From Methylosinus sp. Sm6 (GTDB lineage: Bacteria > Pseudomonadota > Alphaproteobacteria > Rhizobiales > Beijerinckiaceae): DNA of 64,000 bases. The translations under genes were made by a program, and so were the position numbers. The stretch lies in NCBI RefSeq assembly GCF_019802345.1, contig NZ_JAINDZ010000016.1:1-64000 (forward strand), given 5' to 3'. The notes under the pieces are model-generated. The model was not told the DNA's origin. It did no database searches and saw nothing but the letters and a program-made list of their open reading frames with translations. The stretch's first letter is position 1. Every line of letters starts with the position of its first letter. This document shows positions 7,723-64,000 of the stretch, one piece after another.

Positions 7723-8805
7723 ATGAGATCGATCTTCGCCCTTCTGCTCCTCGCCCTCGGCGCCGGCGCGGCCCATGGCGCCGAGCGCGTCGTCAATATC
7801 TTCAATTGGAGCGATTACATCGATCCGACCGTGCTCGAGGATTTCACCCGCGAGACGGGCGTCAAGGTCGTCTACGACACTTTCGACTCCAACGAAGTTT
7901 TGGAGACGCGCCTGCTCGCCGGCTCGGCGGGCTATGACGTCGTCGTCCCTTCGGCGACCTTCCTGCAGCGCGAGATCAAGGCCGGCGTGTTCCGGCCGCT
8001 CGACAAGAGCAAGCTGCCCAATCTGAAGAACGTCTGGCCCGACATCGCGATGCGCCTCTCCCGCTACGACCCCGGCAATGCATTTGCTGTCAACTACATG
8101 TGGTTCACCACCGGGATCGCCTTCAATGTCGCCAAGATCAAGGAGCGCATCGGCGACAAGCCCATCGTCTCCTGGGACCAGGCGCTGAAGCCCGATAATT
8201 TACGCAAATTCGCCGATTGCGGCGTCTATGTGCTCGACAGTCCCGAGGATCTGTTCTCGACGACGCTCAATTATCTGAAGCTCGATCCGAATTCGAAGGA
8301 ACCTGGCGACATTCGCCGCGCCGCCGATCTCCTCTCGGGGCTGCGCCGATACATCAAGAAATTCCACTCTTCCGAATATATCAATGCGCTCGCCAATGGC
8401 GACATCTGCCTCGCCATTGGCTGGGCGGGCGACAGCTTCCAGGCGCGCAACCGCGCGCGCGAGGCGGCCAATGGCGTCGAGATCGCTTATGTGATCCCGC
8501 AGGAGGGCGCGCTGATGTCGCTCGACAATCTCGCCATCCCCAAGGACGCGCCGCATCCCGACGAAGCGCATCTCTTCATCGATTTCCTGCTGCGTCCCGA
8601 CATCGCCGCGCGCAACACCAAGGTGACGCATTTCGCCAATGGCGTCGCCGATTCGCGTCCGCTCGTCGACAAGGAGATCGCGGACAATCCGGCCATCTAT
8701 CCCGACACGGCGGCGATGAGAAAGCTGTTCACCGTGACGGCGCCGGATCTCGCGATCCAGAAGATCGTCACCCGCGAATGGACGCGCGTGAAGACCGGGC
8801 GCTGA
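7723..8805 (+). CDS. Periplasmic polyamine-type binding protein (PotF/PotD family)
   Basis: This is the substrate-binding component of an ABC importer of the spermidine/putrescine class. A signal peptide (MRSIFALLLLALGAGAAHG, cleavage before AERVV) is followed by the family start VVNIFNWSDYIDPTVLEDF and by DVVVPSATFLQREIKAG; length is 360 residues. GAGGAG lies 12 bases before the ATG. No permease or ATPase genes adjoin it, so it is an orphan that must pair with components elsewhere. The ligand is likely a polyamine, not proven. Its 3' end overlaps the opposing glycosyltransferase gene by 38 bp. Confidence 0.9.
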   Translation: MRSIFALLLLALGAGAAHGAERVVNIFNWSDYIDPTVLEDFTRETGVKVVYDTFDSNEVLETRLLAGSAGYDVVVPSATFLQREIKAGVFRPLDKSKLPNLKNVWPDIAMRLSRYDPGNAFAVNYMWFTTGIAFNVAKIKERIGDKPIVSWDQALKPDNLRKFADCGVYVLDSPEDLFSTTLNYLKLDPNSKEPGDIRRAADLLSGLRRYIKKFHSSEYINALANGDICLAIGWAGDSFQARNRAREAANGVEIAYVIPQEGALMSLDNLAIPKDAPHPDEAHLFIDFLLRPDIAARNTKVTHFANGVADSRPLVDKEIADNPAIYPDTAAMRKLFTVTAPDLAIQKIVTREWTRVKTGR

Positions 8806-9919
8806 CGCGGCTCCCGGAGCGCCGCAACGCGCCGGCGACGGCCGCCGCCGCATCGCGCCAGCTGTCGACATAGGCGCCGCTCGCGGGCCGCGTCGCGACG
8901 CCTCCCGCATCGATCGACGCCAGCGCCCTCACATAGGCCGCCGCATCCGCTCCGCTGTCGACGAGGCGCAGCGATCCGTCGGCGAACGCCCGCCGATAGA
9001 TGCGATGATGATCGAACTCGTCCGTCTCGCGCGGCGCATTGACGATCACCGGCCGACCCGATTGCAGACAGGCGAGCACGCTGCCGCGCCGCGAGGTGAG
9101 CCCCTCGGGAAAACGATAGAGGAAGCAGTCGACCTCGCCGAACAGGGCGTTCAGCTCGGCGAAATCGTCGATATAGCCGGTGACGAGCATGCGCTCCTCG
9201 ACGCCGAGCCGGCGCGCCTTCGCATAAAATTCATCCTCGACGCGATCCGCTCCCTTCACGAAGCCCCCGATGAAGAGGCAGAAGGCCGGACAGCCCGCGC
9301 GCATCGCGGCTTCCGCGACATCGAGCACGAAGCCGCTCTGCTTCTTGGGATAGATCGCGCCGAAATGGCCGATGATAATCCCCCCTTGCGCTTTGGCCTC
9401 ACGCAGCCGCGCGGCGAAGCGCGGCGCGGCGGAAGGCGCGACCGGCGGGATATTGGACGGAATCGGCGCGATCACGGTCGGCTTGCCCGCGAGGCGCATC
9501 GCGCGGCTCGCCAGGAAGCCCGCCCGCACATGCGGAGACGAGAAGACGAGCGCCTGCGCGACCAGCGCATAAGCGCCGACGACGAGGCGCCGACGCCAGT
9601 CGAGATCGGCCCATTCGTGCAGAACGAGCGCGCTGCCGCGGCCGCGCAGACGCGCCGAGATCAAAGCGGCGAGCGGCGTCAGCAGCGCTTTCTTCCAGGC
9701 CACGACCGGAACATTGATCGCGATCGCATCGCATGCGCCGAGCGCCCTCCAGATCGCCGCGAGATCGCGCGGCCCGCCCGAGACGGCGAGCATGCGCGCC
9801 TTCCCCCCGATCCGCGGCCAAGCCCCGGCGACGGCGCGCGCAAAGGCCTCGACGCCGCAAGGCGCGGGGGAGCTCGAGATCAGGAACAGCGTCTCGGCGG
9901 GCGTATCCTCGGCGGTCAT
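8768..9919 (-). CDS. GT-B fold glycosyltransferase
   Basis: This 383-residue protein has a Rossmann-like N-terminus (TLFLISSSPAPCGVEAFARA) and a second domain resembling group-1/GT4 glycosyltransferases: IIIGHFGAIYPKKQ, then LVTGYIDDFAELNALFGEVD, then FPEGLTSRRGSVLACLQSGR. The donor-binding E-x7-E motif is not canonical, so donor and acceptor are unknown. It is probably cotranscribed with the Wzz/GumC-like gene upstream (22-bp gap), suggesting cell-surface polysaccharide assembly. Confidence 0.75.
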   Translation of the reverse strand: MTAEDTPAETLFLISSSPAPCGVEAFARAVAGAWPRIGGKARMLAVSGGPRDLAAIWRALGACDAIAINVPVVAWKKALLTPLAALISARLRGRGSALVLHEWADLDWRRRLVVGAYALVAQALVFSSPHVRAGFLASRAMRLAGKPTVIAPIPSNIPPVAPSAAPRFAARLREAKAQGGIIIGHFGAIYPKKQSGFVLDVAEAAMRAGCPAFCLFIGGFVKGADRVEDEFYAKARRLGVEERMLVTGYIDDFAELNALFGEVDCFLYRFPEGLTSRRGSVLACLQSGRPVIVNAPRETDEFDHHRIYRRAFADGSLRLVDSGADAAAYVRALASIDAGGVATRPASGAYVDSWRDAAAAVAGALRRSGSRVSARSSRASIRG

Positions 9920-9941: not shown

Positions 9942-11507
9942 TCAGGCGGATTTGCGCGCCTGCGCCCCGCTCTCCCCCTCCTCGACCGGAGCGAAACGGG
10001 TCGTGACGGTCACGCTCTCGGGCTCGCCAGAAGCGGCGACGCCCGCGGCAACACCCGCGGCAACGCCTGCGGCCTGCGTCTCTGGCTGCGTGTCTTTCTC
10101 CGGCGCGCGACGCGCCCGCAGCACGGCGATCCCGAGCCCGGCGGCGAGGCCCGCCGCGAGGCCCACGCCGGCCATCAGCGTGCCGCTCGGCGGGAAGCTG
10201 CGCGCGATCGGCGGCGTCGCCATCGTGATGACATGCGTGCTCGCCGCATCGAGCTGGCGCGCCTCGCCGGTCTGGCGCGCGCGCGTGAGGAACGACTGAT
10301 AAATGCTGCGGCTCGCATCCACCTCGCGCTCGAGATCGTGCAGCTCGACCGAGGCCTGGCCTGCGTCCGCGGCTCGCCCCTCGAGCTTGCGCACCTCTCG
10401 GCTCAGCGCTTCCTCGGTGCTGCGCGCGCGCTCATAATCCTTGCGCAGCGACCCCGCGACGCGGCCGAGCTCGGCGGCGACGAGACGGCGTGTTTCGGCG
10501 AGCCGCGCCGTCGCGTTGCGCACGACCGGGTGCCGCGGGCCGAGATCGGCCGAGAGATCGGCGAGACGCTGCGCCGCTTCCGCCTGGCTATTGCGCAGAT
10601 TGTTCAGCGTCATGAGATTCATGCTCGCGGCGATATCGGCGAGATCGGCGTCCGAGCGCCCGCCTCTCTGCGCCTGCTCATAGCGCGAGCGCGTGTCCTC
10701 GAGCCGCGTGCGCGCGAAAGTGAGCTGCTGATTGAGTTCTTTGAGCCGCTGCTCATCCGCATAGAGCTCGCGCGTGCCGATGAGCCCGTGACGCGCCTTG
10801 TAATTCTCCACGGCTTTCTCGGCCATGAGCGCACGCTCGCGCAGGCTGTCGATCCCAGCGGTGAACGAGCTCGCCGCCTGCCGCGCGGCGTCGGCATGCA
10901 TGGCGCCGCGCACGCCGATATAGGCCTGCGCGACCGCATTGGCGATGCGCGCAGATTTTTTCGGATCATCGCTCGATGCGGCGATATCGATGATGAAGGT
11001 GCGCTCCGGCCGCCGCACGACGATGCGCGCGCCGAGCGCATGCACCGCACCCGCCATTTTCTCCGCCTCCGTCGGCCGCCGGCCGACGCCGAACAGACGA
11101 TAGAGCAGCGACGGAGCGCCGGCGAATTGCGGATCGTCGAGCAGATGCTCGGAGGCGACGACGCGCTCCAGCACGGCTTGCGAGGCGATGATGCGCGTCT
11201 GCGTTTCGACGAAATTGATGAAGCCGTTCGAATCCTGCGCCTGATTGTCGCCCTCGAGCCCGGGGAGGCTGCGCGGATCGAGATAGATCTGCGCGGCGGC
11301 GACATAGCGTGGCGTCAGCCCTTTGGAGAGGCCGAAGCCGATCGCCGCGCCGATCACGGCCACGGATAAAATGAGCCAGCGCGAGCGCAGAGCGAGCGCC
11401 GCCAGGCTCGCGAGCGTGATGGAGCTCTTGCCGCGCGCCTCTTCGATGACGACGCTCTCCGGGCTCTCGGTCGTGTCACCGCCTCGACTGCGATAGTCCA
11501 GCATCAT
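9942..11507 (-). CDS. Wzz/GumC-like polysaccharide chain-length protein
   Basis: These inner-membrane proteins control chain length and export of exopolysaccharide. The product (about 521 residues from the ATG at 11507) has an N-terminal membrane segment (ALRSRWLILSVAVIGAAIGF), a Wzz domain (YVAAAQIYLDPRSLPGL), long coiled-coil periplasmic stretches (about residues 180-430) and a second membrane segment (TLMAGVGLAAGLAAGLGIAV). No tyrosine-kinase domain follows. The C-terminal tail contains a short Ala/Gly/Val repeat (AAGVAAGVAAGVAASG). The start is uncertain because no clear ribosome site exists; upstream in-frame starts give a basic leader. A related protein begins at 62647. Confidence 0.82.
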   Translation of the reverse strand: MMLDYRSRGGDTTESPESVVIEEARGKSSITLASLAALALRSRWLILSVAVIGAAIGFGLSKGLTPRYVAAAQIYLDPRSLPGLEGDNQAQDSNGFINFVETQTRIIASQAVLERVVASEHLLDDPQFAGAPSLLYRLFGVGRRPTEAEKMAGAVHALGARIVVRRPERTFIIDIAASSDDPKKSARIANAVAQAYIGVRGAMHADAARQAASSFTAGIDSLRERALMAEKAVENYKARHGLIGTRELYADEQRLKELNQQLTFARTRLEDTRSRYEQAQRGGRSDADLADIAASMNLMTLNNLRNSQAEAAQRLADLSADLGPRHPVVRNATARLAETRRLVAAELGRVAGSLRKDYERARSTEEALSREVRKLEGRAADAGQASVELHDLEREVDASRSIYQSFLTRARQTGEARQLDAASTHVITMATPPIARSFPPSGTLMAGVGLAAGLAAGLGIAVLRARRAPEKDTQPETQAAGVAAGVAAGVAASGEPESVTVTTRFAPVEEGESGAQARKSA

Positions 11508-11909
11508 GCGATGTCCATTGCTGGCCCGAATCTCGCGACGGCGACGACGTCGCGTCGCCTTCCGCATTTCGGCGCCGTGGTTGATATTCTCCAAATGCTC
11601 GCAAGCCGCATTTTCTGCTAGCGGCGAATAAAGACGATTTGCAGGCGCCGAAACGCATTTGTGGGACGCTGTGAGATATCGGGACGCATCGCCTGTCCCA
11701 GGATTGGCCTGCGCGTGTCATTTTCGTGCATCTCGGTAGGAGATTCTTTCCAAAAACGGTCAAATCGAATGGAACAGAATTAGCAGCCGCTCACGATTGT
11801 CGATCGATTCACCTTCGCCGATCGCAATGTCTTCACCATCGAGCGGCAACTTTGCTGCAAATGCCGGCGAAATCCGTATGGTGAAGCCACAGGACGATAC
11901 GCAACTCAC
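11508..11909. promoter_or_regulatory. Divergent intergenic region upstream of carrier-protein cluster
   Basis: This 402-bp stretch separates the minus-strand GumC-like gene from the plus-strand carrier-protein operon and is AT-richer than its surroundings. I see no convincing gene in it. A 9-bp inverted repeat (CTTCACCAT at 11831-11839 and ATGGTGAAG at 11878-11886) flanks TTTGC-T-GCAAA and ends 24 bp before the carrier-protein start. It could be an operator pair or a leader hairpin. Promoters for both directions presumably lie here, but no confident -35/-10 pair was found. Confidence 0.45.
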
Positions 11910-12176
11910 ATGTCGATGGAGATGATGATGCTCGCAACGATCCGACGCCTCGTGGAGGAACAGGGACGCCTCTCGGCCGCCGCCGACACGCTGCGCGACG
12001 ACGCCGATCTCTATGCGTCGGGACTCACCTCATTCGCTGCGGTGCAGCTCATGCTGGCGCTCGAGGAGGCGTTCGACGTCGAGTTCCCCGAGCGCATGCT
12101 CAACAGGCGCAGCTTCGCCTCGATCGCGGCGATCGCCTCCTGCATCGCCGAACTGAAGCCGGAGGAGGTCGCCTGA
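11910..12176 (+). CDS. Stand-alone acyl/aminoacyl carrier protein
   Basis: This is an 88-residue carrier protein. The phosphopantetheine site is in DLYASGLTSFAAVQLML, with Ser41 in place of the DSL serine; Leu-Thr-Ser-Phe is the variant seen in carriers paired with amino acid:[carrier protein] ligases. Helix III is recognisable in FDVEFPERMLNRRSFASI. The likely role is to hold an amino acid loaded by the ligase at 13338-14249. It overlaps the dehydrogenase gene by one base (TGATG), so translation is probably coupled. Several Met codons (MSMEMMM) make the exact start uncertain. Confidence 0.88.
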   Translation: MSMEMMMLATIRRLVEEQGRLSAAADTLRDDADLYASGLTSFAAVQLMLALEEAFDVEFPERMLNRRSFASIAAIASCIAELKPEEVA

Positions 12177-13333
12177 TGAATGCGCCTTTGGATCGCGGAG
12201 CGACCGTCGTCGCCGCCGCCGCTCTTCATGCCGACGATGTCGATCGCCGCGGTCGCTTTCCGGCGGAAGCGGTGCAGGCGCTCAAGGATGCGCGACTGAT
12301 GTCGCTGCTGATCCCGACAGAGCTCGGCGGCGCCGGCGCGCCGCTCGCCGACGTCGCCGAGCTGTGCACGACGCTCGGCCATCATTGCGCGTCGACCGCG
12401 ATGGTCTTCGCCATGCATCAGATCAAGGTGTCGAGCCTCGTCGCGCATGGGATGGAGAGCGAGTGGCATCGCGGCTTCATGCGCCGCGTCGCCGACGCCC
12501 AGCTCCTGCTCGCATCGGCCACGACAGAAGGCGGGGTCGGCGGCAATCTGCGCAACAGCATCTGCGCTTTCGAGCGAGACGGCGACATGTTCCGCGTCTC
12601 CAAGGAGGGCGCGCTCATCTCTTACGGCGCGCAGGCCGACGCGATCCTCGTCACGGCGCGCCGCGCCGCGGACGCGCCGCCCTCCGATCAGCGCATGGCC
12701 GTGCTGGCGCGCGGACAATATCGCCTCGAGCGCAGCGGCGAATGGGACGCTCTCGGCATGCGCGGCACTTGCAGCGAGGGCTTCACGCTCAGCGGCGAAG
12801 CGCCTCACGAGCAGATCCTCGCCAGCGAATTCGCCGATATCGCCTCGCATTCCATGCTGGCGACGGCGCATCTGCTGTGGAGCTCGGTGTGGTTCGGAAT
12901 CGCCAGCGACGCCCTCGGCCGCGCTCAGGCCTTCGTGCGCAAGGACGCGCGCAAGCGCTTCGACGGCCCCTCGCCCGGCGCGTTGCGCCTCGCGGAGGCT
13001 TCGACCAAGCTGCAGCTGATGCGCGCCAATATCGTCGAAGGCCTGAGGCGCTTCGAACGCGCCAACAGCGAGCCGGACGATCTCAACTCGATGAGCTTCG
13101 CCGTGACGATGAACAACGTCAAGGTCGGCTCCTCGGAGCTCGCCCTCGAGATCATCAATCATGCGCTGCTCATCGCCGGCATCGCCGGCTACAAGAACGG
13201 CACGCCCTACAGCGTCGGCCGCCACATGCGCGACGCGCTGTCGGCGCGGGTGATGATCTCCAACGATCGCATCCTCGGCAATATGTCGACGCTGCTGCTC
13301 GCGCAGCGCATCGACGCGCGACTGGGAGACTAA
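12176..13333 (+). CDS. Acyl-CoA dehydrogenase-like flavoprotein
   Basis: The 385-residue protein has the three-domain acyl-CoA dehydrogenase layout: an N-terminal helical domain ([20 protein letters not shown]), a beta domain, and a C-terminal helical domain ending near [20 protein letters not shown] and [13 protein letters not shown]. The usual C-terminal Y-x-G-T-S-E signature is absent and replaced by ILGNMST, so the substrate is unlikely to be an ordinary fatty acyl-CoA. Placement between a carrier protein and its ligase suggests oxidation of a carrier-bound aminoacyl thioester, as known for prolyl-carrier oxidases. That is inference. Confidence 0.85.
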
Positions 13334-13337
13334 CGCC

Positions 13338-14249
13338 ATGTGCGAGGCTTGCGACAGCTTTCTCGACCGCATGTTCGCCAAGGGCGTCCTGCATGCGACC
13401 GGCGTCGACGGACTTTATGGACGCGGCGCCTCCTTCGAAGCGGTCGTCGACGGATTGGACCGGCTGATCACGCGCCTCGCCAGCGACGACGCGGCCGAAG
13501 TCATTCGCTTTCCGCCCGGCATGAATCGCGCTCTGTTCGAGAAGAGCGGCTATATGAAGAACTTCCCGCAGCTCGCGGGAACGGTCCACAGCTTCGATGG
13601 CAACGAGAAGGACCATATGGCCCTGCTCGACGCCATTCACAACGGCGGCGCGTGGACGCAGGGACAGGCTGCGACCGACATCGTGCTGACGCCAGCGGCC
13701 TGCTATCCGCTCTATCCGATCGTCGCGCGGCGCGGTCCGCTGACGCCGGAGGGCGCGTTGTTCGACGTGCAGTCCTATTGCTTCCGCCACGAGCCGTCCA
13801 AGGACCCGGCGCGCATGCAGATGTTCCGCATGCGGGAATTCGTGCGCATCGGCGCGCCGGAGCAGGCCGCCTCCTTCCGCGAGCGCTGGCTCGATCGCGC
13901 GCGCGACTTCGCCGAACGGCTCGAGCTGCCGCATCATATCGACGTCGCCAATGATCCGTTCTTCGGACGCGCCGGCAAGATGATGGCGTCGAGCCAGCGC
14001 GATCAGGCGCTGAAGTTCGAGCTGCTGGTGCCGATCGAGAGCGTCGAGAAGCCCACCGCCTGCCAGAGCTTCAACTACCACCAGGACCACTTCGGCTCCC
14101 TGTGGGGAATCGAGACATCGTCGGGCGAGACCGCGCACACGGCTTGCGTCGGCTTCGGCATGGAGCGTCTCACCCTCGCCTTGTTCAAGCATCACGGATT
14201 GGATACCGATGGCTGGCCGAAATCAGTGCGCGCCGCGCTCACTCTCTGA
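13338..14249 (+). CDS. Amino acid:[acyl-carrier-protein] ligase (class II aaRS-like)
   Basis: The protein resembles the catalytic core of atypical seryl-tRNA synthetases and lacks a tRNA-binding domain. Family members (Bradyrhizobium Bll0957) activate a small amino acid with ATP and load it on a carrier protein. At 303 residues it matches the family. Cys122 (AACYPLYP), Glu167 (MREFVR) and Cys270 ([14 protein letters not shown]) sit at spacings of 45 and 103, identical to the zinc ligands Cys131/Glu176/Cys279 that I recall for the characterised enzyme. The start is 4 bp after the dehydrogenase stop. The amino acid used (glycine or alanine are known) cannot be told. Confidence 0.92.
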
Positions 14250-15219
14250 CGAGGAGGCGAGCCCGCTCGCTCCTGAGGCGGCGCATGAGCGTCATGCGCT
14301 GCATCATCCCGAGCGCGATTGGCCGCAGACCAATTGCTATGTCGATCTGTGGGTCGAGCTTCTCGCCTCGCGCGGGCTCGATCCCTCGGCGATGCTCGGC
14401 TTCACGGTCGCGCAGGACTTCGAAGGCGATCAATTCACCTTCTTCAAGCCGCGCATCGCCGATCTCGAACGGCTCTATGGCGTTCGGCTCGAGGAGCTGT
14501 CGCTCTATGATCGTCTCGACAGCCAGATCGAGCTGCAGGTTTCGCGCGGCCGCGTCGTGCTCGTCGAGGTCGACGGACATTATCTGCCCGACACGCGCGG
14601 CGTGACCTATCGCATCGACCATTCCAAGACGACGATCGGCGTCGAAGCCATCGACCTTCGCGCCCGCCGCATCGACTACTTCCATAACGACGGCTATTTC
14701 TCGCTCGACGGCGAGGACTTCGACGCGATCTTCGGACCCGAAGGCGCAGAACGCGATCCGGCCGCGCTGTTTCCCTATGCGGAATTCGTGCGCTTCGATC
14801 GCGCGCAGCCGCGCGACGATCTGCGGGAGATTGCGGAGGGTCTTCTGGTCGAGCACTTCGCCCGTCGTCCGGCGAAAAATCCATTGCGCGCCTTCGCCGC
14901 GGCGCTTCCGGCTTTGTGGGAGGCGCTGCTCGCGCGTCCGCCGTGCTTCTTCCACAGCCTCGCCTTCAACAGCTTCCGCCAGGTCGGCGCCAATTTCGGG
15001 CTGCTCGGCAGTCATCTCGAATGGCTGCGGCCAAATGGCGCTTTCATCGCCGAGAGCGCGGCGTGCGAGCGCCTGTCCTCCGGCGCGAAGGCGTTGCAGT
15101 TCCAGGCGGCGCGCGCTTCCGCGCGCAAGCGCGCGCTCGAGGCGAGCCCGGCGCTCGACGAGATGGCGCTCGCCTATGACATGCTGGTCGACGGACTGGC
15201 GAAACGGCTCGCGCGCTAG
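14209..15219 (+). CDS. DUF1839 protein, possible BtrH-like aminoacyl transferase
   Basis: DUF1839 proteins accompany amino acid:[carrier protein] ligases but have no established activity. This one has 336 residues and its start overlaps the ligase gene by 41 bp. The N-terminal part shows Cys43 in [32 protein letters not shown], His138 in [16 protein letters not shown], Asp149 and [14 protein letters not shown]. The order Cys, His, Asp resembles papain-like folds of the C39/BtrH type; BtrH moves an aminoacyl group from a carrier protein to an aminoglycoside. Transferase function is my inference. There is no signal peptide. Confidence 0.8.
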
Positions 15220-15221
15220 CA

Positions 15222-17663
15222 ATGCGGATGCGCGGCGGAGACCATCGGATCGCCCTCGAAGAGGGCTGGTCCTTCGCCATCGACGAGACCGGCGCCTCGG
15301 CCGAGCCCGGCGCCGTTCCGGAGACTGCCCTGTGGCGCGCCGCGCGCGTTCCCGGAACGCTGGCGCAAGCCTTGCTTGATGCGGGCGAGGCGCTCGACGG
15401 CTTGCCGGCGCTCGACTCGCTCGACGTCTGGTACGAGACGAGCTTCATCGCGGAGAGGCCGGCGGAGCTGCGGCTCGACGGTCTCGCCAGCGTCGCCGAC
15501 GTGTTTCTCGACGGCGCGCTCGTCCTGCATTCCGACAATATGTTTCACGCGCATCGCATCGCGGTCGCGAGCCCCGGCCGTCATCGGCTGCACATCGCCT
15601 TCCGTTCGGTCGAGCGCGAAATCGCCAAGACAAGCGGACGCGCGCGCTGGCGTCCGCGCATGATCGTTCCCGCGGGCCTGCGCGCCATTCGCACCACCGC
15701 GCTCGGACGCCTGCCCGGCTTCGCGCCGCCGACGCCGCCGGTCGGCCCTTGGCGCGAGATCGCGCTGGTCGAGCCCGGTCCGCTGACCGACGCGCGCATG
15801 CGCGCCTGTGTCGAGGACGGCGTTCCGACCTTGCGCGTCGCCCTCGATTTCGCGACGACGCCGGAGGGAGAGGCGCTGCTGCTCTGCGCCGGACGACGAA
15901 CGACGCTGGCGCGCACCGGGGAACGGCGGCTCGAGGCGACGCTGCGCCTGCCGGACTGTCCGCTCTGGACGCCGCATACGCATGGCGAACCGCATCTGCA
16001 CGTCGTCGAAGCGCGCGTCGGCGATCTGCACATCGACCTCGGCCGCGTCGGCTTTCGCGACATTCGCGTCGAGCGCGGCGCCGACGGGCGCGACTTCGAG
16101 CTGTTCGTCAACGGACTTCCGATCTTCTGCCGCGGCGCGTGCTGGACGGCGGCGGATGCGGTGTCGCTGCGCAGCCGGCGCGAGGATTGCGAGCCCCTGC
16201 TCGTCGCCATGCGCGACGCCGGCATGAACATGGTCCGCGTCCCCGGCGTCACTCTCTATGAGAGCGACGATTTCTATGATCTCTGCGATGAATTGGGGAT
16301 CATGGTCTGGCAGGACTTCGCCTTCGCCAATTTCGATTTCCCCGTGCAGGACGCGGCCTTTTGCGCGAGCGTCGAGCGCGAGGCGACGCAGTTTCTGCAG
16401 CGCGTGCAATCCGCGCCGTCGCTGTCGGTGCTCTGCGGCGGCAGCGAGGTCTATCAGCAGGCGGCCATGCTCGGCCTCGCGGAGGCGAAATGGCGCTCGC
16501 CTCTGTTCGACGAGCTGCTGCCGCGCCTCGCGCGTGCGCATCGTCCCGACGTCGTCTATGTCGAGAATTCGCCCTCCGGCGGCGCCCTGCCCTTTCATTC
16601 GGACAGCGGCGTCGCGCATTATTACGGCGTCGGCGCCTATCGCCGTCCGCTCGAGGACGCCCGTCGCGCCGCCGTGCGCTTCGCCTCCGAATGCCTGGGC
16701 TTTTCCTGCGCTCCGGACAATGCGTCGCTCGCGCGCGATTTCGGCGCGGCGCCGCTCGCCTCGCCGCTCTACGCCGCACGCGCGCCGCGCGACATGGGCG
16801 CGATGCAGACTTTCGGTGAAGTGACCGAACATTACATGCGCGCGCTCTACGGCTGCGATCCGGATGCGCTGCGCGAAAGCGATCCGACGCTCTATCTTCA
16901 CATCGCCCGCGCCGCCGTGGCGGAGGCGATGGAGGCGACGATCGGCGAATGGCGGCGCGCCGGCTCGTCGACGCATGGCGCGCTGGTCTGGTTCCTGAAG
17001 GATCTATGGCCCTCGCCGGGCTGGGGAGTCATCGACGCGCATAACGAGCCGAAATCGGCCTATTACGCCTTGAAGCGCGCCTGTCGCCCGCTATCGCTCA
17101 TCCTCGCCGACGAAGGGGTCAACGGGCTGTTGGTGCATCTGCGCAATGACGCGCCGCATCGGGTCGCCGGCGAAATCACGCTCTCTTGCTATCGCGAGGG
17201 CAAGGTGAAGGTGATGCAGGCGCGCCGGCCCATCGTGGTCGAAGCGCATGGCGTCGTGACGCTGCGCGACGTGGAGTTCTGGGGCGGCTTTTTCGATACG
17301 ACGCTCGCCTATGGCTTCGGTCCGCCGTCGCATGACGTCACGCATGCGAGCTTCGTCGCGGAGGGCGGCGATGCGCCGATCGACGCTTTTCATTTTCCGC
17401 TCGGCCGCAGCGCGGTCAAAGCGACGCTCGGGCTTCGCGCCGAGCTCGTGGAAGACGCGCAGGGCTACGCCTTGATACTGTCGTGCGAGGCCGTCGCGCA
17501 ATCGGTCGAGATCGAGGCGGACGACTTTCGTCCGGCGGATAATTGGCTGCATCTCGCGCCCGGAGCGGCGCGCCGCATCGCGCTGCTTCCGCGCCGCGCC
17601 GGCGCGCGGGGCCCGCAAGGCGCGGTTTCGGCGTTGAACGGAGAAGCGGTCCGCTACGGCTGA
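15222..17663 (+). CDS. Glycoside hydrolase family 2, beta-mannosidase-like
   Basis: This 813-residue GH2 protein starts 2 bp after the DUF1839 gene. Domain order is a sugar-binding jelly roll (residues ~30-180, with SLDVWYETSFIAERPAELRL), an immunoglobulin-like domain (~190-280), then a TIM barrel (NGLPIFCRGACWTAADA, MRDAGMNMVRVPGVTLYESD). The acid/base region reads LCGGSEVYQQ, with Ser instead of the usual Asn before Glu, and the nucleophile region reads RFASECLGFSCAPD. No signal peptide is visible, so it should act in the cytosol. Its inclusion in the carrier-protein operon suggests it trims or rearranges a glycan that is aminoacylated. Confidence 0.87.
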   Translation: MRMRGGDHRIALEEGWSFAIDETGASAEPGAVPETALWRAARVPGTLAQALLDAGEALDGLPALDSLDVWYETSFIAERPAELRLDGLASVADVFLDGALVLHSDNMFHAHRIAVASPGRHRLHIAFRSVEREIAKTSGRARWRPRMIVPAGLRAIRTTALGRLPGFAPPTPPVGPWREIALVEPGPLTDARMRACVEDGVPTLRVALDFATTPEGEALLLCAGRRTTLARTGERRLEATLRLPDCPLWTPHTHGEPHLHVVEARVGDLHIDLGRVGFRDIRVERGADGRDFELFVNGLPIFCRGACWTAADAVSLRSRREDCEPLLVAMRDAGMNMVRVPGVTLYESDDFYDLCDELGIMVWQDFAFANFDFPVQDAAFCASVEREATQFLQRVQSAPSLSVLCGGSEVYQQAAMLGLAEAKWRSPLFDELLPRLARAHRPDVVYVENSPSGGALPFHSDSGVAHYYGVGAYRRPLEDARRAAVRFASECLGFSCAPDNASLARDFGAAPLASPLYAARAPRDMGAMQTFGEVTEHYMRALYGCDPDALRESDPTLYLHIARAAVAEAMEATIGEWRRAGSSTHGALVWFLKDLWPSPGWGVIDAHNEPKSAYYALKRACRPLSLILADEGVNGLLVHLRNDAPHRVAGEITLSCYREGKVKVMQARRPIVVEAHGVVTLRDVEFWGGFFDTTLAYGFGPPSHDVTHASFVAEGGDAPIDAFHFPLGRSAVKATLGLRAELVEDAQGYALILSCEAVAQSVEIEADDFRPADNWLHLAPGAARRIALLPRRAGARGPQGAVSALNGEAVRYG

Positions 17664-17685: not shown

Positions 17686-18378
17686 TCAAGGTCCTCGAAC
17701 CAGTGTTTCGGGGAAAGTGAGGCGCACCATGGCGCCCATTTTCGAGCTGCACAGCTCGAGCCGGCCGCGCAGCTGTCGGGCGATGCCGCGCATCAGCTCT
17801 ATGCCGTTGCCGCGCGCGCAATGCGAGGGATCGAATCCGATGCCGGAATCGATCACCGTCAATTCGAGATCATAGCCGAGACGACGGAACCGCGCGGCAA
17901 TCTGGCCCGCCGCTCCGCCAGGGAAAGCGTGCTTCATCGCATTTGTGACCGCCTCGACATAGACGAGGCCGACACATTGGGCGCGACGATAGTCGAGGCA
18001 GATGTCCGCATCGGCGGCCATCTTACCCGCTATGCGGTCGTCGAAGGCGTTGCGCCGCGCTTCCGATAGCGCCCAGAGATAATCGTCCATTCGAATGTCC
18101 GACGCGCCGTCCTCGTCCAGCGCATTGTGCAGCGCCGCGGCGCTGCGCAGGCGCATGGCGCAGCGGGCGCATCCTTCCGGCCTGTCGAGACGGCGGGATT
18201 GTGCGGAGATCAGCGTGGCGAGGCCCTGCAGGTCGTTGCGGATGCGATGGCGCAGCTCCGCATAGCGCTCCCGCTCCAGTCGAAGCTCGTCCTGCACCGC
18301 GGCGAGTCGCGCCTCCAGTACGGCGATTTTCGTCTCGCTCGTCTCGGCAATGAAGGAGTCGCCGACACTCTCTTTCAT
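17686..18378 (-). CDS. Cytosolic HWE/HisKA_2-type sensor histidine kinase
   Basis: The protein of 230 residues has an N-terminal coiled coil (ETKIAVLEARLAAVQDELRL), the dimerisation/phosphorylation helix YAELRHRIRNDLQGLATLIS (His in ELRHR), and an ATPase domain with YVEAVTNAMKHAF, VIDSGIGFDP and GNGIELMRGIA. It has no membrane or recognisable sensor domain. The ATG at 18378 is preferred over the GTG at 18402 because GGAGGA lies 8 bases upstream. No response regulator is adjacent. HWE/HisKA_2 kinases in these bacteria often feed the PhyR general stress pathway; that link is only a possibility. Confidence 0.82.
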   Translation of the reverse strand: MKESVGDSFIAETSETKIAVLEARLAAVQDELRLERERYAELRHRIRNDLQGLATLISAQSRRLDRPEGCARCAMRLRSAAALHNALDEDGASDIRMDDYLWALSEARRNAFDDRIAGKMAADADICLDYRRAQCVGLVYVEAVTNAMKHAFPGGAAGQIAARFRRLGYDLELTVIDSGIGFDPSHCARGNGIELMRGIARQLRGRLELCSSKMGAMVRLTFPETLVRGP

Positions 18379-18431
18379 CCGCCGGATCCTCCGCGGCGAC
18401 ACAGGAGGGCCGCTCCCGTGTCGCGCCGGCC

Positions 18432-18469
18432 TGCTTTAGAACAACTAAAGCACAGTCGAGAAATGTCAA
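18432..18469 (-). promoter_or_regulatory. Promoter with overlapping palindromic operator
   Basis: On the minus strand TTGACA (18469-18464) is followed by a perfect 8-bp inverted repeat, TGCTTTAG-TTGTT-CTAAAGCA (18452-18432), which covers the expected -10 region. It lies 54 bp upstream of the histidine kinase start and overlaps the last codons of the permease gene. The arrangement looks like a repressor-controlled promoter. The binding protein is unknown; the palindrome differs from LexA (GTTC-N7-GTTC) and only half matches Irr-type boxes. Confidence 0.55.
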
Positions 18470-19923
18470 TCCGGCGCCGCGCCGGAGGCGTCGCAGCTGC
18501 GCCCGGCGCAAGACGCGGCGGCGAGCCGGCTGCGCCGGCGCCCATATGAAAAATACAGGATCAGCCCGAGGCCCATCCAAAGCGCGAAGCGCTCCCAGGC
18601 GATGGCGGGGAGCTTCGACAGCAGCCAAAGCGAGAAGCCGACGCCGACGAGCGGCGTGACTGGCGAGAAAGGCGTGCGGAAGCTGCGCGGCGCGTCGGGC
18701 CGGGTGTGGCGCATTACGATCACCGAGACGCAGATCACGACGAAGGCGGACAGCGTTCCGATATTCACGAGCTCGGCCACCTCGCGGATCGGGAACAGGC
18801 CGGCCACGAACGCGGTCAGCGCGCCGATGACCAAGGTCGGCCGGTGCGGCGTGTGGAAGCGCGGATGCGGCTTCGAGAGCCAGGCCGGCAGCAGCCCGTC
18901 CCGGCTCATGGCGAAGCAGATGCGCGCGCAGCCGAGCAGAAAGGCGAGCATGACGCTGACAATGCCGGCGACCGCGGCGACGGAGACGAGCAGAGTCGCC
19001 CAGGGCATGCCGAGAGCGGCGAAGGCGGAAGCGACCGGCGCCGGATTGTTCAGCGTATCATAGCGCGCCATGCCGGTGAGCACGAAGGACATGGCGATAT
19101 AGAGCGTCAGCGCCACGCCGAGCGACAGCAGCACCGCGCGGGGCAGTTGTCGCTGCGGATCGCGGGCCTCTTCGGCGGCGGTGGTCAGCGTGTCATAGCC
19201 GAACACGGCGAAGAACACGACTGCGGCGCCTTCGACGACGCCGCCGAAGCCGAAGGGCATGAAGGGCGTCCAGTTCTCGACGCGCACATGCGGAAGGCCG
19301 GCCGCCACCACCAGCACGACGGCGGCGATCTTGATGAGCACCATGGCCGCGTTGAAGCGGGCGCCCCATTCGATGCGCTGCACCAGCAGCGCGGCGACGC
19401 CGAGCGCGCCGAGCGTGGCGGCGAGATCGACGACGCGGCCCTCGCCCGTTCCGGCGGCGCCCGCCGCCCAGACCGGCAGAGCGAGGCCGAGCTGGCCGAG
19501 CAGCGCCTGCAAATAGCCGGACCAGCCGATCGAGACGACGGCGACGACGAGGGCGTATTCGAGCAGCAGGTCCCAGCCGATGATCCAGGCGGCGAGCTCG
19601 CCGAGCACGGCATAGGCGTAAGTATAGGCGCTGCCGGCGGCGGGAATCATGCCGGCGAATTCGGCGTAGCAGAGCGCCGCCGCCGCGCTGGCGACTCCGG
19701 CGATGACGAAGGAGAGCGAGACCGCAGGGCCCGCCTGGGTCGCCGCCACGACGCCGGTGAGCACGAAAATGCCGACCCCGATCAGCCCGCCGAGGCCGAT
19801 CGCGGTGAGCTGCCACAGGCCCAGCACGCGGCGCAGCCCGCTCTCGGCCCCGCCTTGCCCGCAGAGCGTTTCGATCGGCTTCACGCGGGTCAGCGCGCTC
19901 CAGCCGAGATCTCCTCGGGTCAT
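18466..19923 (-). CDS. APC-family amino acid permease
   Basis: The 485-residue protein has about twelve membrane segments typical of the amino acid-polyamine-cation superfamily (CAT/YfnA-like branch). Hallmarks are GLGGLIGVGIFVLTGVVAA in segment 1, EFAGMIPAAGSAYTYAYAVL in segment 3, and FFAVFGYDTLTTAAEEARDP in segment 6. The C-terminus carries a short Arg/Cys/Ala tail. Likely cationic amino acid uptake; the substrate cannot be assigned. The ATG at 19923 faces the divergent VOC gene across 93 bp. Confidence 0.9.
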   Translation of the reverse strand: MTRGDLGWSALTRVKPIETLCGQGGAESGLRRVLGLWQLTAIGLGGLIGVGIFVLTGVVAATQAGPAVSLSFVIAGVASAAAALCYAEFAGMIPAAGSAYTYAYAVLGELAAWIIGWDLLLEYALVVAVVSIGWSGYLQALLGQLGLALPVWAAGAAGTGEGRVVDLAATLGALGVAALLVQRIEWGARFNAAMVLIKIAAVVLVVAAGLPHVRVENWTPFMPFGFGGVVEGAAVVFFAVFGYDTLTTAAEEARDPQRQLPRAVLLSLGVALTLYIAMSFVLTGMARYDTLNNPAPVASAFAALGMPWATLLVSVAAVAGIVSVMLAFLLGCARICFAMSRDGLLPAWLSKPHPRFHTPHRPTLVIGALTAFVAGLFPIREVAELVNIGTLSAFVVICVSVIVMRHTRPDAPRSFRTPFSPVTPLVGVGFSLWLLSKLPAIAWERFALWMGLGLILYFSYGRRRSRLAAASCAGRSCDASGAAPD

Positions 19924-58979: not shown

Positions 58980-60200
58980 TCAGTGTCGAGATCGCTCGGC
59001 CGGTCTTTTTGACACAGAAGCCGATCCCTCGACCTCTATCGAGCAATCCCGGCGCCGGTCGGCGTCTGTTCCGATTTCCGGCATCCGGCGCGAGCCCGCC
59101 GCACCATGATAAATCTGCGAGTAGCTTTCGGCGACGCGCGGCCATGCGAATTCGCGCGCAAGGCCGACTGCCCTCTCACGCAGAGCTCCTGCGGAGGCTT
59201 CGAGCTCGTCGAATGCGCGGCCGATCGCTTTCGCCGTCGCAGCAACGTCGGCAAAATCCGCAATGTGAATGAGCCCGCGCCGTGACGAGAAGGCGCGATA
59301 AGCGTCATTCCCATGCACCACCGGCAGCAGTCCCGCGCTCAGCGCTTCGATCAAAGCTATGCCGAAACCCTCATATTCCGACGCGCTCACGAACAGGCTC
59401 GAACGGCCGATCAGCTGCGCGACGCCGTCATCGTCCAGGCCGACATGAAGCTGCACATGCGCCTGAAGCGAGCGTTGCGCGATCTCGTCGTTCAAACGAT
59501 CCTTGTTCCAATCGGATTCGAGTCCGACGATGTCGAGGCGCCACTGCGCATCCCGCTCGACCAACGCCCGCATCGCGTCGAGCAGACGGTCGAGCCGCTT
59601 GTTGACCGAAAATCGTCCGATGGCGATGAGCGACTTCACCGGCGTTCGACTCGATGCGTGCGCGAATTTGTCGATATCCGTCCCGTTCTCCACCAGTTGC
59701 AAATTGTTCGGCGAGATCGTCGCGAACAGACGATAGTCGCTGTCGCTGCACGCGACGATCGCGTGATAGCGGCGCGCCGTGAACCGCGTCACCGCGGCGA
59801 ACCAGATGCGCTTCAACGTCGAATGCGCGGCTGTATGGAAAAATCCGCCATGGGTGGTCGCGATGATCGGGCGTCGCCGCAGGAGCGACGCGAGCGCGAC
59901 GAAATCGAACAAGAAGTCGACGGCATGAACATGCAGGATATCGGCGTCGCCGATGTGCGCGAGCACGCCCGGCGCGATCGGATAGCGCGTCGAGCCGAAA
60001 AACGGCACGCGGCGGATCTCTATGCCGTCGAGAGCGTCTTTATCGGCGAGAGGCGTGTCGCGATCGGTGAACAGACGATCCAGCGTCACGACACGCACAT
60101 GCGCGCCCGCTTCCACCTGCGCGCGGGCGAGTCGATGAACGAACTCCTCGAGCCCTCCCCGCGAAGGCCAGAACTGGCGAACGATATGGACAATTCTCAT
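58980..60200 (-). CDS. GT4 family glycosyltransferase
   Basis: This 406-residue GT-B enzyme begins MRIVHIVRQFWPSRGGLEEF, the GT4 glycine-rich N-terminus, and has LIAIGRFSVNKRLDRLLDAM and the E-x7-E donor motif in SASEYEGFGIALIEALSAGL. It looks like mannosyl/glucosyl transferases of xanthan-type repeat assembly (GumH/AceC-like), though donor specificity cannot be read from sequence. It is divergent from the GT2 gene, with a 107-bp promoter gap. Confidence 0.9.
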   Translation of the reverse strand: MRIVHIVRQFWPSRGGLEEFVHRLARAQVEAGAHVRVVTLDRLFTDRDTPLADKDALDGIEIRRVPFFGSTRYPIAPGVLAHIGDADILHVHAVDFLFDFVALASLLRRRPIIATTHGGFFHTAAHSTLKRIWFAAVTRFTARRYHAIVACSDSDYRLFATISPNNLQLVENGTDIDKFAHASSRTPVKSLIAIGRFSVNKRLDRLLDAMRALVERDAQWRLDIVGLESDWNKDRLNDEIAQRSLQAHVQLHVGLDDDGVAQLIGRSSLFVSASEYEGFGIALIEALSAGLLPVVHGNDAYRAFSSRRGLIHIADFADVAATAKAIGRAFDELEASAGALRERAVGLAREFAWPRVAESYSQIYHGAAGSRRMPEIGTDADRRRDCSIEVEGSASVSKRPAERSRH

Positions 60201-62646: not shown

Positions 62647-64000
62647 ATGAATCGAATTCGCCCCGGAAGCGAGCCGCAGACGGACCCGAGCGGGTCCCGC
62701 TCGCCCGAGCGCAATGCGGATGCGCCGAGCGCGCTCGATTTCGACGCCGGCGAATATGTCCGCTTCGTGCGGCGTCATGGCAAATGGATCCTGTCGATTA
62801 CCGGGATCGCATTGATCCTCGGATTGTGCTTCTATCTGCTCGTGCCCGCGCGCTATCGCTCTGTCGCGGAGATTTTGCTCGATCCGCGCGGCGTGGCGCT
62901 GGCGAAAGCCGACCCCGCATTTCAGAGCCTCGGAGCGGACAGCAATCTGCTCGATCTCGAGACGCAGCGCTATCTCATCGTGTCGAGCAGCGTGCTCGGC
63001 GCCGTCGTCGATGAGGAAAGGCTCAACGAAGACCCGCAGTTCACGCGCGTCGGCTTCATCGGCAAGCTGCTCGGAAGCAAGCCCAACGACAGCAGAGAAG
63101 CGGCGATCGAAAAGCTCGCCGCCATGATCGAGGTCATGAGAGGCGAGCGCGCGCTGATCCTCGACATCATCGTAGTCAGTCCAGACCCGCGGCTCTCGGC
63201 GCGTCTCGCCAACGCGGTCGCGCGCGTGTTCTTTTCCCGGAATGGCGCCGCCCAGCGCGAGGCCGCGCGTCGGGCGGGCCTCGCTCTCCAGGGTCGCGCC
63301 GAGCAATTGGCGCAGGAGCTGCAAGACGCCGAAGCGAAAGTCGAGCGCTACAAATCCGAGCACGATCTTTCCGAGACGGCGGGAAAGCTCACCGCGGAGC
63401 AGCAGCTCGGCGATCTCAGCTATCAGCTCGGCCTCGCCCGCTCACAGGTCGCGCAGACCAGAGCCCGTTTCGAAGAGGTCACGAAGCTGCAACGCTCGAA
63501 AGCCGCGGTCGATCAATTGTCCGACGCGGTGCATTCGAACACGATTTCCGGCCTGCGCACGCAATATGCGACGCTGGTCCAGCAGAAGTCGGCGATGGAG
63601 ATGCAATTTGGTCCCAAATTTCCGCCGCTGATCGATATCCAGCGGCAGATTCAGGAAGTCGGCAGGCTCATCGACGCAGAGCTCTCGCGGATCGCCGGCG
63701 CGGCGCTCAGCGATCATCGCCGCGCGCAGACGACGGAGGCCGATCTCGAGAGCAGGCTCGCGGGGCTCAAGCGGCGGTCGTTCCAGGTGAATGAGACGAT
63801 GGTCGGGCTGCGCGCGCTGGAGCGCAGCGTCGAAGCGACGCGCAATCTCTATCAATCTTCGCTCAAGCGCGCCAAGGAGCTCGAAGAATCGCAGGAGGTC
63901 GACAGCTCCACGTCGCGCATCATCACCGAGGCCGTGCCCAATAACAAAAAGGCCGGCCCTCCCCTCCCGCTCGTGCTCGGCGGCGCTCTGATCTGCGGCA
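62647..64000 (+). CDS. GumC/Wzz-like polysaccharide export protein (3' end outside window)
   Basis: The frame is open from the ATG at 62647 to the window edge (451 codons). After a hydrophilic leader (~35 residues) comes a membrane segment (WILSITGIALILGLCFYLLV), the Wzz domain (YRSVAEILLDPRGVALAKAD), and a coiled-coil GNVR-like region (about 195-420). A second membrane segment begins at the end (PLPLVLGGALICG). A C-terminal tyrosine-kinase domain may or may not follow outside the window. It is a paralogue of the 9942-11507 protein. Confidence 0.85.
   Translation, partial: MNRIRPGSEPQTDPSGSRSPERNADAPSALDFDAGEYVRFVRRHGKWILSITGIALILGLCFYLLVPARYRSVAEILLDPRGVALAKADPAFQSLGADSNLLDLETQRYLIVSSSVLGAVVDEERLNEDPQFTRVGFIGKLLGSKPNDSREAAIEKLAAMIEVMRGERALILDIIVVSPDPRLSARLANAVARVFFSRNGAAQREAARRAGLALQGRAEQLAQELQDAEAKVERYKSEHDLSETAGKLTAEQQLGDLSYQLGLARSQVAQTRARFEEVTKLQRSKAAVDQLSDAVHSNTISGLRTQYATLVQQKSAMEMQFGPKFPPLIDIQRQIQEVGRLIDAELSRIAGAALSDHRRAQTTEADLESRLAGLKRRSFQVNETMVGLRALERSVEATRNLYQSSLKRAKELEESQEVDSSTSRIITEAVPNNKKAGPPLPLVLGGALICG

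Follow-up and report, generated by a model that had tools for sequence, protein, structure and literature searches.

A conserved carrier-protein cassette with DUF1839 in Methylosinus sp. Sm6 and a constant tandem-hydrolase partner: a possible amide synthetase for amino-acid decoration of a sugar

The five-gene cassette

The window studied here is a 64,000-nucleotide stretch of Methylosinus sp. Sm6 (positions 1 to 64,000 of contig NZ_JAINDZ010000016.1), and it carries on the forward strand a five-gene cassette (11910-17663) which begins with an aminoacyl carrier protein of 88 amino acids (11910..12176), recognised from the open reading frame list and family scans and having its phosphopantetheine serine at Ser41. 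The second gene (12176..13333) encodes a flavoprotein of 385 amino acids with the acyl-CoA dehydrogenase fold, the presumed modifier of the aminoacyl thioester, and the third (13338..14249) an amino acid:[carrier protein] ligase of 303 amino acids, recognised by its PRK07080 match and placed by a tree in a DUF1839-linked clade. These are followed by the DUF1839 protein of 336 amino acids (14209..15219), papain-like and a presumed amide synthase of the CcbD/CtaG kind with Cys43, Thr141/142 and His159, and by a GH2 glycosidase-like protein of 813 amino acids (15222..17663) with Glu409, Glu490 and a Ser-Glu doublet replacing Asn-Glu. The successive junctions are a 1 base pair (bp) overlap, a 4 bp gap, a 41 bp overlap and a 2 bp gap. 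An earlier sequence-only reading had described five genes in this order and direction with spacings of -41 to +4 bp, and the open reading frame coordinates bear it out.

In the family scans the carrier scored 37.6 bits with PP-binding and 108 bits with NCBIfam PRK07081 (cut-off 72), the ligase 498.6 bits with PRK07080/NF005479 against a curated cut-off of 357, the DUF1839 protein 381.6 bits with PF08893 (cut-off 22.5) and the GH2 protein 49.2 bits with Glyco_hydro_2_N2. Judged by eye from their N-termini, all five proteins look cytosolic.

Conservation and distribution

To follow the distribution of the cassette, 327 genomes were sampled evenly from the order; they are related to one another. 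DUF1839 is present in 55 of them and a ligase over the cut-off in 72, which include all the 55. The carrier, flavoprotein, ligase, DUF1839 and GH2 genes stand in the same order on one strand in 54 of the 55 DUF1839 genomes, and in the remaining one DUF1839 lies 321 bases from a contig end, so that the GH2 side is cut off. DUF1839 lies at most 437 bases behind the ligase in every one of the 55 (the DUF1839 places of 53 genomes were fetched, the window and locus L109 standing for the other two). The shared order and strand show that the grouping is not due to chance; the proposal that the five genes act as a unit is thereby strengthened, and the survey of co-occurrence which the sequence-only reading had called for came out in its favour.

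A second set of 85 loci was made up of the best 80 of 575, of L001-L004 and of the window, L001 being the window's own place again. The ligase and DUF1839 were found in all 85, the flavoprotein and GH2 in 84 each and the carrier in 78, some loci being too short to reach the carrier. The best-80 set and the 327-genome sample overlap in species and their counts are not independent; likewise, the alignments of 115 rows and of 88 to 92 rows used below contain near-copies. The nearest DUF1839 relatives among the best 80 of 575 loci belong to Methylosinus and Methylocystis, and the Agrobacterium loci have the same five genes. On annotated plasmids of Azospirillum (two), Rhizobium, Caballeronia and Mycetohabitans the carrier, flavoprotein, ligase and DUF1839 genes keep the same order, with GH2 next in all five (annotated in four, by similarity only in L085). 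In a wider sample of the class DUF1839 was found in 4 of 289 genomes and a ligase over the cut-off in 7 of 289. A few copies are decayed or mis-sequenced: DUF1839 is in two frames in L240 (G495), GH2 in two frames in L029, the flavoprotein and GH2 frames are short in L015, and the ligase frame is broken in L045 (decay or sequencing error).

A sixth component outside the cassette

The functional set is wider than the five genes. A protein of two fused alpha/beta-hydrolase domains, found by similarity search, is encoded at 66035-67837 of the same contig (C70). Its gene is separated by about 51 kb from DUF1839, and the window ends 2 kb before it. It stands near polysaccharide genes, two genes past a second Wzz-type gene which starts in the window (62647..64000, forward strand) and continues to contig base 64758. 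At a limit of E<=1e-40 chosen by us, this sixth gene was present in exactly the 55 DUF1839 genomes and in none of the other 272; the weakest best match among the 55 was 8.7e-61, and nothing in the other genomes fell between this value and the limit. A Fisher test of the association is overstated because the genomes are related. The two genes are also gained or lost together, 6 genomes of the window's family having them and 8 lacking them, with 3 and 3 in genus g4. The sequence-only reading, correct on the five genes, had overlooked this partner, which accompanies DUF1839 throughout the 55 genomes.

The two genes are constant companions and are not always linked: in the 55 genomes they lie within 12 kb of each other in 39, farther apart on the same contig in 6 and on different contigs in 10. 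In flanks fetched to a length of at most 10 kb, the sixth gene was found in 67 of the 85 loci, or in 70 of 84 when the copy of the window's genome was the query. Among 12 genomes searched outside the order three were positive, including G186 and G280. In G186 the carrier, flavoprotein, ligase and DUF1839 genes are on contig C19 with no GH2 next to them, and GH2 and the sixth gene stand side by side on C12. The sixth gene was not seen in the fetched plasmid stretches of Caballeronia and Rhizobium, the search covering these stretches only.

Of 115 aligned rows of the protein, 114 retain Cys399, 113 Asp524 and 114 His557 in the second domain, whereas in the first domain neither Ser nor Cys occupies the nucleophile place in the six commonest forms (GQGLG, AQGLG, GLRLG and others, making up 90 of the 115 rows). 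The protein is thus predicted to have one Cys-Asp-His triad, in its second domain, and a cysteine nucleophile would suit acyl transfer.

The protein also resembles exosortase-associated hydrolases 1 and 2, which would suggest a polysaccharide-linked exosortase A system of protein sorting. Its scores, 95.5 bits with TIGR03100 (cut-off 168.45) and 76.2 bits with TIGR03101 (cut-off 202.75), are well under the cut-offs, and this explanation is scarcely credible. The exosortase family PF09721 was found in 2 of the 55 genomes and in neither the other 53 nor the window's own genome (G000), and the association was rejected. The window's genome contains a second, more distant tandem hydrolase (G000:C151:30177-31835; 35-36% identity).

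The DUF1839 protein

By sequence alone no solved relative of the DUF1839 protein was found at E<=10. Its AlphaFold2 model (predicted local distance difference test, pLDDT, 89) gave 13 structural matches with template modelling (TM) scores of 0.49-0.60 and 8-17% identity. The best relatives include the carrier-dependent amide synthase CcbD, which is matched over its full length, C-terminal helical half included. Cys43 and His159 are kept in 89 of 89 rows. In the model helix 43-54 opens with Cys43, which agrees with the place of the nucleophilic cysteine in the CcbD/CtaG type, at the head of the first core helix; Thr141/Thr142 lie on strand 140-149, and His159 ends the next strand. The order of the triad does not match the Cys-His-Glu/Asp of that type. 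The swapped triad, Cys-Thr-His, is described in PMC10318531, the accessible part of which offers the guess that DUF1839 proteins process glycans at the cell wall; CcbD, CtaG and AziU do not appear in the main text of that paper. From the model, the DUF1839 protein is presumed to work like the papain-like amide synthases of the CcbD/CtaG type, without being filed as a CcbD.

Two other roles for this protein were considered. It may be a thioesterase, so that the amino acid is oxidised on the carrier and then freed as a modified amino acid; papain-like enzymes often hydrolyse, and the rearranged triad might favour water. Against this, the match spans the whole of a synthase with its helical half, and hydrolysis leaves the GH2 gene and the polysaccharide link unexplained, which makes the thioesterase quite improbable. 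Alternatively, the sixth protein may be the real transferase, acting through Cys399, with DUF1839 engaged elsewhere, for example on cell-wall glycans. The well-kept triad of the sixth protein, the genome G131, which has the sixth gene with a ligase and carrier and no DUF1839, and the cell-wall guess in the seen portion of PMC10318531 speak for this, but CcbD is among the best structural relatives of DUF1839 while the 14 top rows contain no enzyme of the wall, and DUF1839 follows the ligase closely in all 55 genomes. We regard it as unlikely.

Ligase and carrier

Cys122, Glu167 and Cys270 of the ligase align with the metal-site positions of Bll0957, whose residues there we take to be its zinc ligands. 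They are kept in 91, 92 and 92 of 92 aligned ligases, the single miss being the broken frame of L045, and the earlier statement that all three zinc-ligand positions are retained holds in this alignment. The carrier has Ser41 in all 88 aligned rows, and its nearest solved chain is Atu2571 of Agrobacterium (2jq4, E 4.6e-24; also 4h2w_C).

A tree of 34 rows (thinned from 108 ligases, with L045 dropped and L104-L106 taken from the second set) splits at 100/100 into a DUF1839-linked clade and a Bll0957 clade, a two-way division of the family which the sequence-only reading overlooked. The window ligase belongs to the former, outside the clade of the crystallised Bll0957. Residue 272, two places from the zinc cysteine, is Gly in the DUF1839-linked clade and Ala in Bll0957 and in 18 of 19 loci without DUF1839; the exception is L104 of G131, on a long branch on the DUF1839 side.

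Bll0957 and Atu2573 were reportedly studied as amino acid:[carrier protein] ligases, together with the carrier Atu2571, by Mocibob and co-workers in 2010 and 2013. The window ligase has the same metal-site residues and the PRK07080 match, and the window carrier is closest to Atu2571. Bll0957 differs in its clade and in having Ala272 where the cassette clade has Gly272, and the fetched loci of its clade are without DUF1839. Atu2573 is probably the ligase of the Agrobacterium cassette, judging from the carrier Atu2571 and from Atu2574. Since Atu2573 presumably takes alanine and Bll0957 glycine, residue 272 and the clade make alanine the most likely cargo of the window ligase. The role of such ligases and aminoacyl carrier proteins is described as unknown in the accessible text of PMC9437257.

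Flavoprotein and GH2 protein

The flavoprotein alignment used 86 of 90 rows (the incomplete frames of L015 and L028 were left out, and L105 and L106 were shown apart). By alignment with 8i4p and 4iv6 we located positions 361 and 231, which we take to be the MCAD-like and IVD-like positions of the catalytic glutamate. Position 361 is Ile in 84 of 86 rows, including the window protein (I361), and position 231 (A231 in the window protein) carries Ala, Ser, Thr or Cys in the 12 rows inspected; His232, Trp235 and Trp239 are invariant in all 86. The window protein therefore does not have the glutamate, at either usual position, that marks a classical acyl-CoA dehydrogenase. Because its family scores mix monooxygenases and dehydrogenases, all far under the cut-offs of those families, the reaction could be a hydroxylation or amine oxidation just as well as a desaturation. 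The sequence-only reading had the aminoacyl group, possibly oxidised, moved to a glycan or small molecule; transfer to a glycan or sugar fits the CcbD-like fold of DUF1839, but the oxidation is not established by a flavoprotein that is without both usual glutamates.

In the GH2 protein the catalytic residues are well kept, E409 in 87 of 88 rows and E490 in 86 of 88, the misses being L045 (broken or cut frame) and, for E490, also L015 (short open frame). The Asn before the acid/base glutamate is replaced by Ser408 in 86 of 88 rows, with one Asn and one gap. The nearest solved enzymes are beta-mannosidases, and no signal peptide is evident by eye at the N-terminus. In the accessible part of PMC12243196 Ser at this place is linked to C2 amination or substituted substrates, and that of PMC1976428 describes a GH2 group with Agrobacterium and Burkholderia members whose catalytic doublet differs and whose substrate may be new. 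Hence, the Ser-Glu doublet would point to an amino sugar or acylamino sugar. The SF_22 group of the CLUSS paper contains Agrobacterium AAL43556, Burkholderia and Ralstonia proteins; AAL43556 is probably the GH2 protein of the cassette. Unlike the cassette GH2, that group is given no gene context in the part of the paper seen.

Association with polysaccharide genes

The cassette adjoins, in divergent orientation, a gene for a Wzz/EpsF-type chain-length protein of polysaccharide synthesis (9942..11594, reverse strand; Wzz 41.5 bits, TIGR01005 154.8 bits, below the cut-off), and farther upstream, likewise divergent, lies a glycosyltransferase-like gene (8768..9919, reverse strand; Glyco_trans_1_4 26 bits, just under the cut-off of 27). 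A GT4 glycosyltransferase (58983..60200, reverse strand) belongs to a second polysaccharide region. At a limit of E<=1e-50, also chosen by us, homologues of this GT4 were found in 21 of the 55 DUF1839 genomes and in 5 of the 272 others, i.e. enriched and not required, and in all 21 DUF1839 genomes that have both, GT4 lies within 10.8 kb of the sixth gene. Some linked cassettes are flanked by GT4, GumK-like, Wzz, flippase and GH5 genes. Twenty stretches around sixth genes at least 10 kb from the cassette contained Wzz in 11 and GT4 in 7. From the 57 flanking proteins listed in the sixth-gene stretches 12 were left out by choice, and the 45 scanned included flippases, an initiating transferase, a Wzy-like protein and deacetylases, besides unrelated proteins (cobalamin, chromate, cation and other transport genes, one protein each).

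Representatives of polysaccharide synthesis (GT4, a second glycosyltransferase, Wzz, GumK, Wzx and C40) were found in 14 of the 55 cassette stretches. With this count and that of GT4, an obligate part for polysaccharide genes was rejected; they are common neighbours. When the 19 ligase-only loci were searched in this way, two had Wzz and one (L104) had the sixth gene.

Proposed mechanism

Our study suggests, with about an even chance of being right, a cytosolic amide synthetase driven by a transfer RNA (tRNA)-synthetase-like ligase and working in the manner of lincosamide synthetase, to attach an amino acid to a sugar amine. Adenosine triphosphate (ATP)-dependent loading of an amino acid onto the carrier has been shown in published work for relatives. 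The window ligase would use ATP to activate an amino acid, most likely alanine, and place it as a thioester on the carrier. The flavoprotein may then oxidise the amine of this thioester or hydroxylate it, instead of carrying out an ordinary alpha,beta-desaturation. As its fold and conserved residues suggest, Cys43 of DUF1839 would accept the group and form an amide with an amine, most likely that of an amino sugar serving as a cytosolic exopolysaccharide precursor. The two least certain roles are those of the GH2 protein, which may trim or proofread a beta-glycoside of a C2-altered sugar, and of the tandem hydrolase, whose Cys399 may perform a second acyl transfer or clear a misloaded carrier.

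More specifically, and only tentatively, we propose a six-component amide synthetase that would be the equivalent, for the cell surface, of lincosamide synthetase. It would join an oxidised or hydroxylated alanine to an amino sugar of a Wzx/Wzy-type exopolysaccharide in Agrobacterium, Rhizobium, Mesorhizobium, Methylosinus, Azospirillum and Burkholderiaceae. For this it would use a papain-like enzyme whose Cys-Thr-His triad is swapped, and a tandem alpha/beta hydrolase with a Cys nucleophile which always accompanies it and is not necessarily linked. The likeness to CcbD/LmbD of lincosamide synthetase (also to CtaG and AziU2-U3) lies in the predicted full-length fold, the nucleophilic cysteine and the carrier-bound aminoacyl donor. 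CcbD has only about 12% identity with the DUF1839 protein, and His/Glu where DUF1839 has Thr/His. Moreover, lincosamide synthetase activates its amino acid with an adenylation domain, in place of the tRNA-synthetase-like ligase of the cassette, and sits in an antibiotic cluster, whereas DUF1839 is linked to GH2 and often to polysaccharide genes.

Several points weigh against this proposal. Acceptor, product and enzyme activities are predictions, and the alanine assignment leans on the data reported for Atu2573. A common fold is no proof of common function at the TM scores and identities of the 13 matches, and with Cys-His-Glu in CcbD against an apparent Cys-Thr-His in DUF1839 the chemistry may differ. 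Amino sugars are not known to be substrates of CtaG or AziU2-U3. G131 has the ligase, carrier and sixth gene, and neither DUF1839 nor GH2 was found there at the limits used; together with the Caballeronia and Rhizobium stretches it speaks against a strict pairing of the sixth gene with DUF1839. Further, the 14 cassette stretches with polysaccharide representatives (stretches of ~8-20 kb) and the 12 with GH5 are a minority of the 55, as are the 21 genomes with GT4, and four plasmid loci (two of Azospirillum, one each of Caballeronia and Rhizobium) have little or no annotated polysaccharide gene nearby, the gene table being incomplete.

Owing to these sparse neighbours and to the four plasmid loci, the main rival is the same chemistry with a small soluble product, an aminoacyl-sugar or aminoacyl-amine serving as signal, protectant or metallophore, which the GH2 protein releases or trims. 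The presence of the cassette as a self-contained block on plasmids and replicons where few polysaccharide genes are annotated close by, and five proteins that look cytosolic by eye, would agree with such a product, and CcbD, like CtaG and AziU2-U3, comes from a small-molecule pathway. On the other hand, Wzz is present in more than half of the distant sixth-gene stretches, GT4 is never far from the sixth gene where both occur, and a recognised exporter, an ATP-binding cassette (ABC) protein, was found near the cassette in only 13 of the 85 loci, 80 of which are the best 80 of 575. A soluble product is possible and, in our view, doubtful.

The cluster itself is not new: it has been in print since 2010, which the sequence-only reading overlooked. 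The same neighbourhood (carrier, redox enzyme, uncharacterised Atu2574, glycosidase and liposaccharide genes) was seen by Iyer and Aravind and is given in a note in proof (PMC2922099), the accessible part of which predicts that Atu2574, a DUF1839 member, joins an amino acid to the amine of a sugar as an amide, mono-oxygenation being probable. There the redox enzyme is called Rossmann-fold, whereas acyl-CoA dehydrogenase domains match here; that text gives no fold for Atu2574 and no sixth gene, and the present analysis tests fold, residues and co-occurrence. In the literature searched, which took in the seen parts of these sources and few subscription papers, no product of the cluster was found; nor did it contain the likeness in fold between DUF1839 and CcbD/CtaG/AziU2-U3, the sixth gene or the context-tied ligase split. 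With a fold match, a constant sixth partner and a ligase clade having one marker residue at the active site, the question of role becomes testable with six proteins. If the proposed surface role is true, a surface sugar of plant-associated and methane-oxidising bacteria is decorated with an amino acid in a way that has gone unrecognised.

Adjacent genes and a second ligase system

Just 3' of the cassette and convergent with it lie, on the reverse strand, a small histidine-kinase-like gene (17686-18402) and an amino acid permease near BcaP (18466-19923; 555 bits, under the family cut-off of 690). The family scans gave no sign that either belongs to the cassette.

The ligase, carrier and tandem hydrolase of L104 (G131) are accompanied by four scanned neighbours of no known Pfam family; DUF1839, the flavoprotein and GH2 were not found nearby, and this may be a third arrangement. 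The Bll0957-type loci are a second, different aminoacyl-carrier system. In all 18 such loci (L105, L106 and L172-L187) the ligase adjoins its own flavoprotein; the carrier is present in 16, an AMP-binding enzyme with a short-chain dehydrogenase in 8 and DUF1839 in none. The two ligase types occur together in 0 of the 327 genomes, 55 having a ligase with DUF1839 and 17 one without, with one match each; the probability of this exclusion by chance is 0.04 for the order and 0.009 for the window's family, relatedness being ignored. A homoserine O-succinyltransferase and an O-succinylhomoserine-sulfhydrylase-like gene stand near the second cluster in 5 of the 18 loci (L105, L106, L185, L186 and L187), and in L106 and L186 they are directly behind the ligase.

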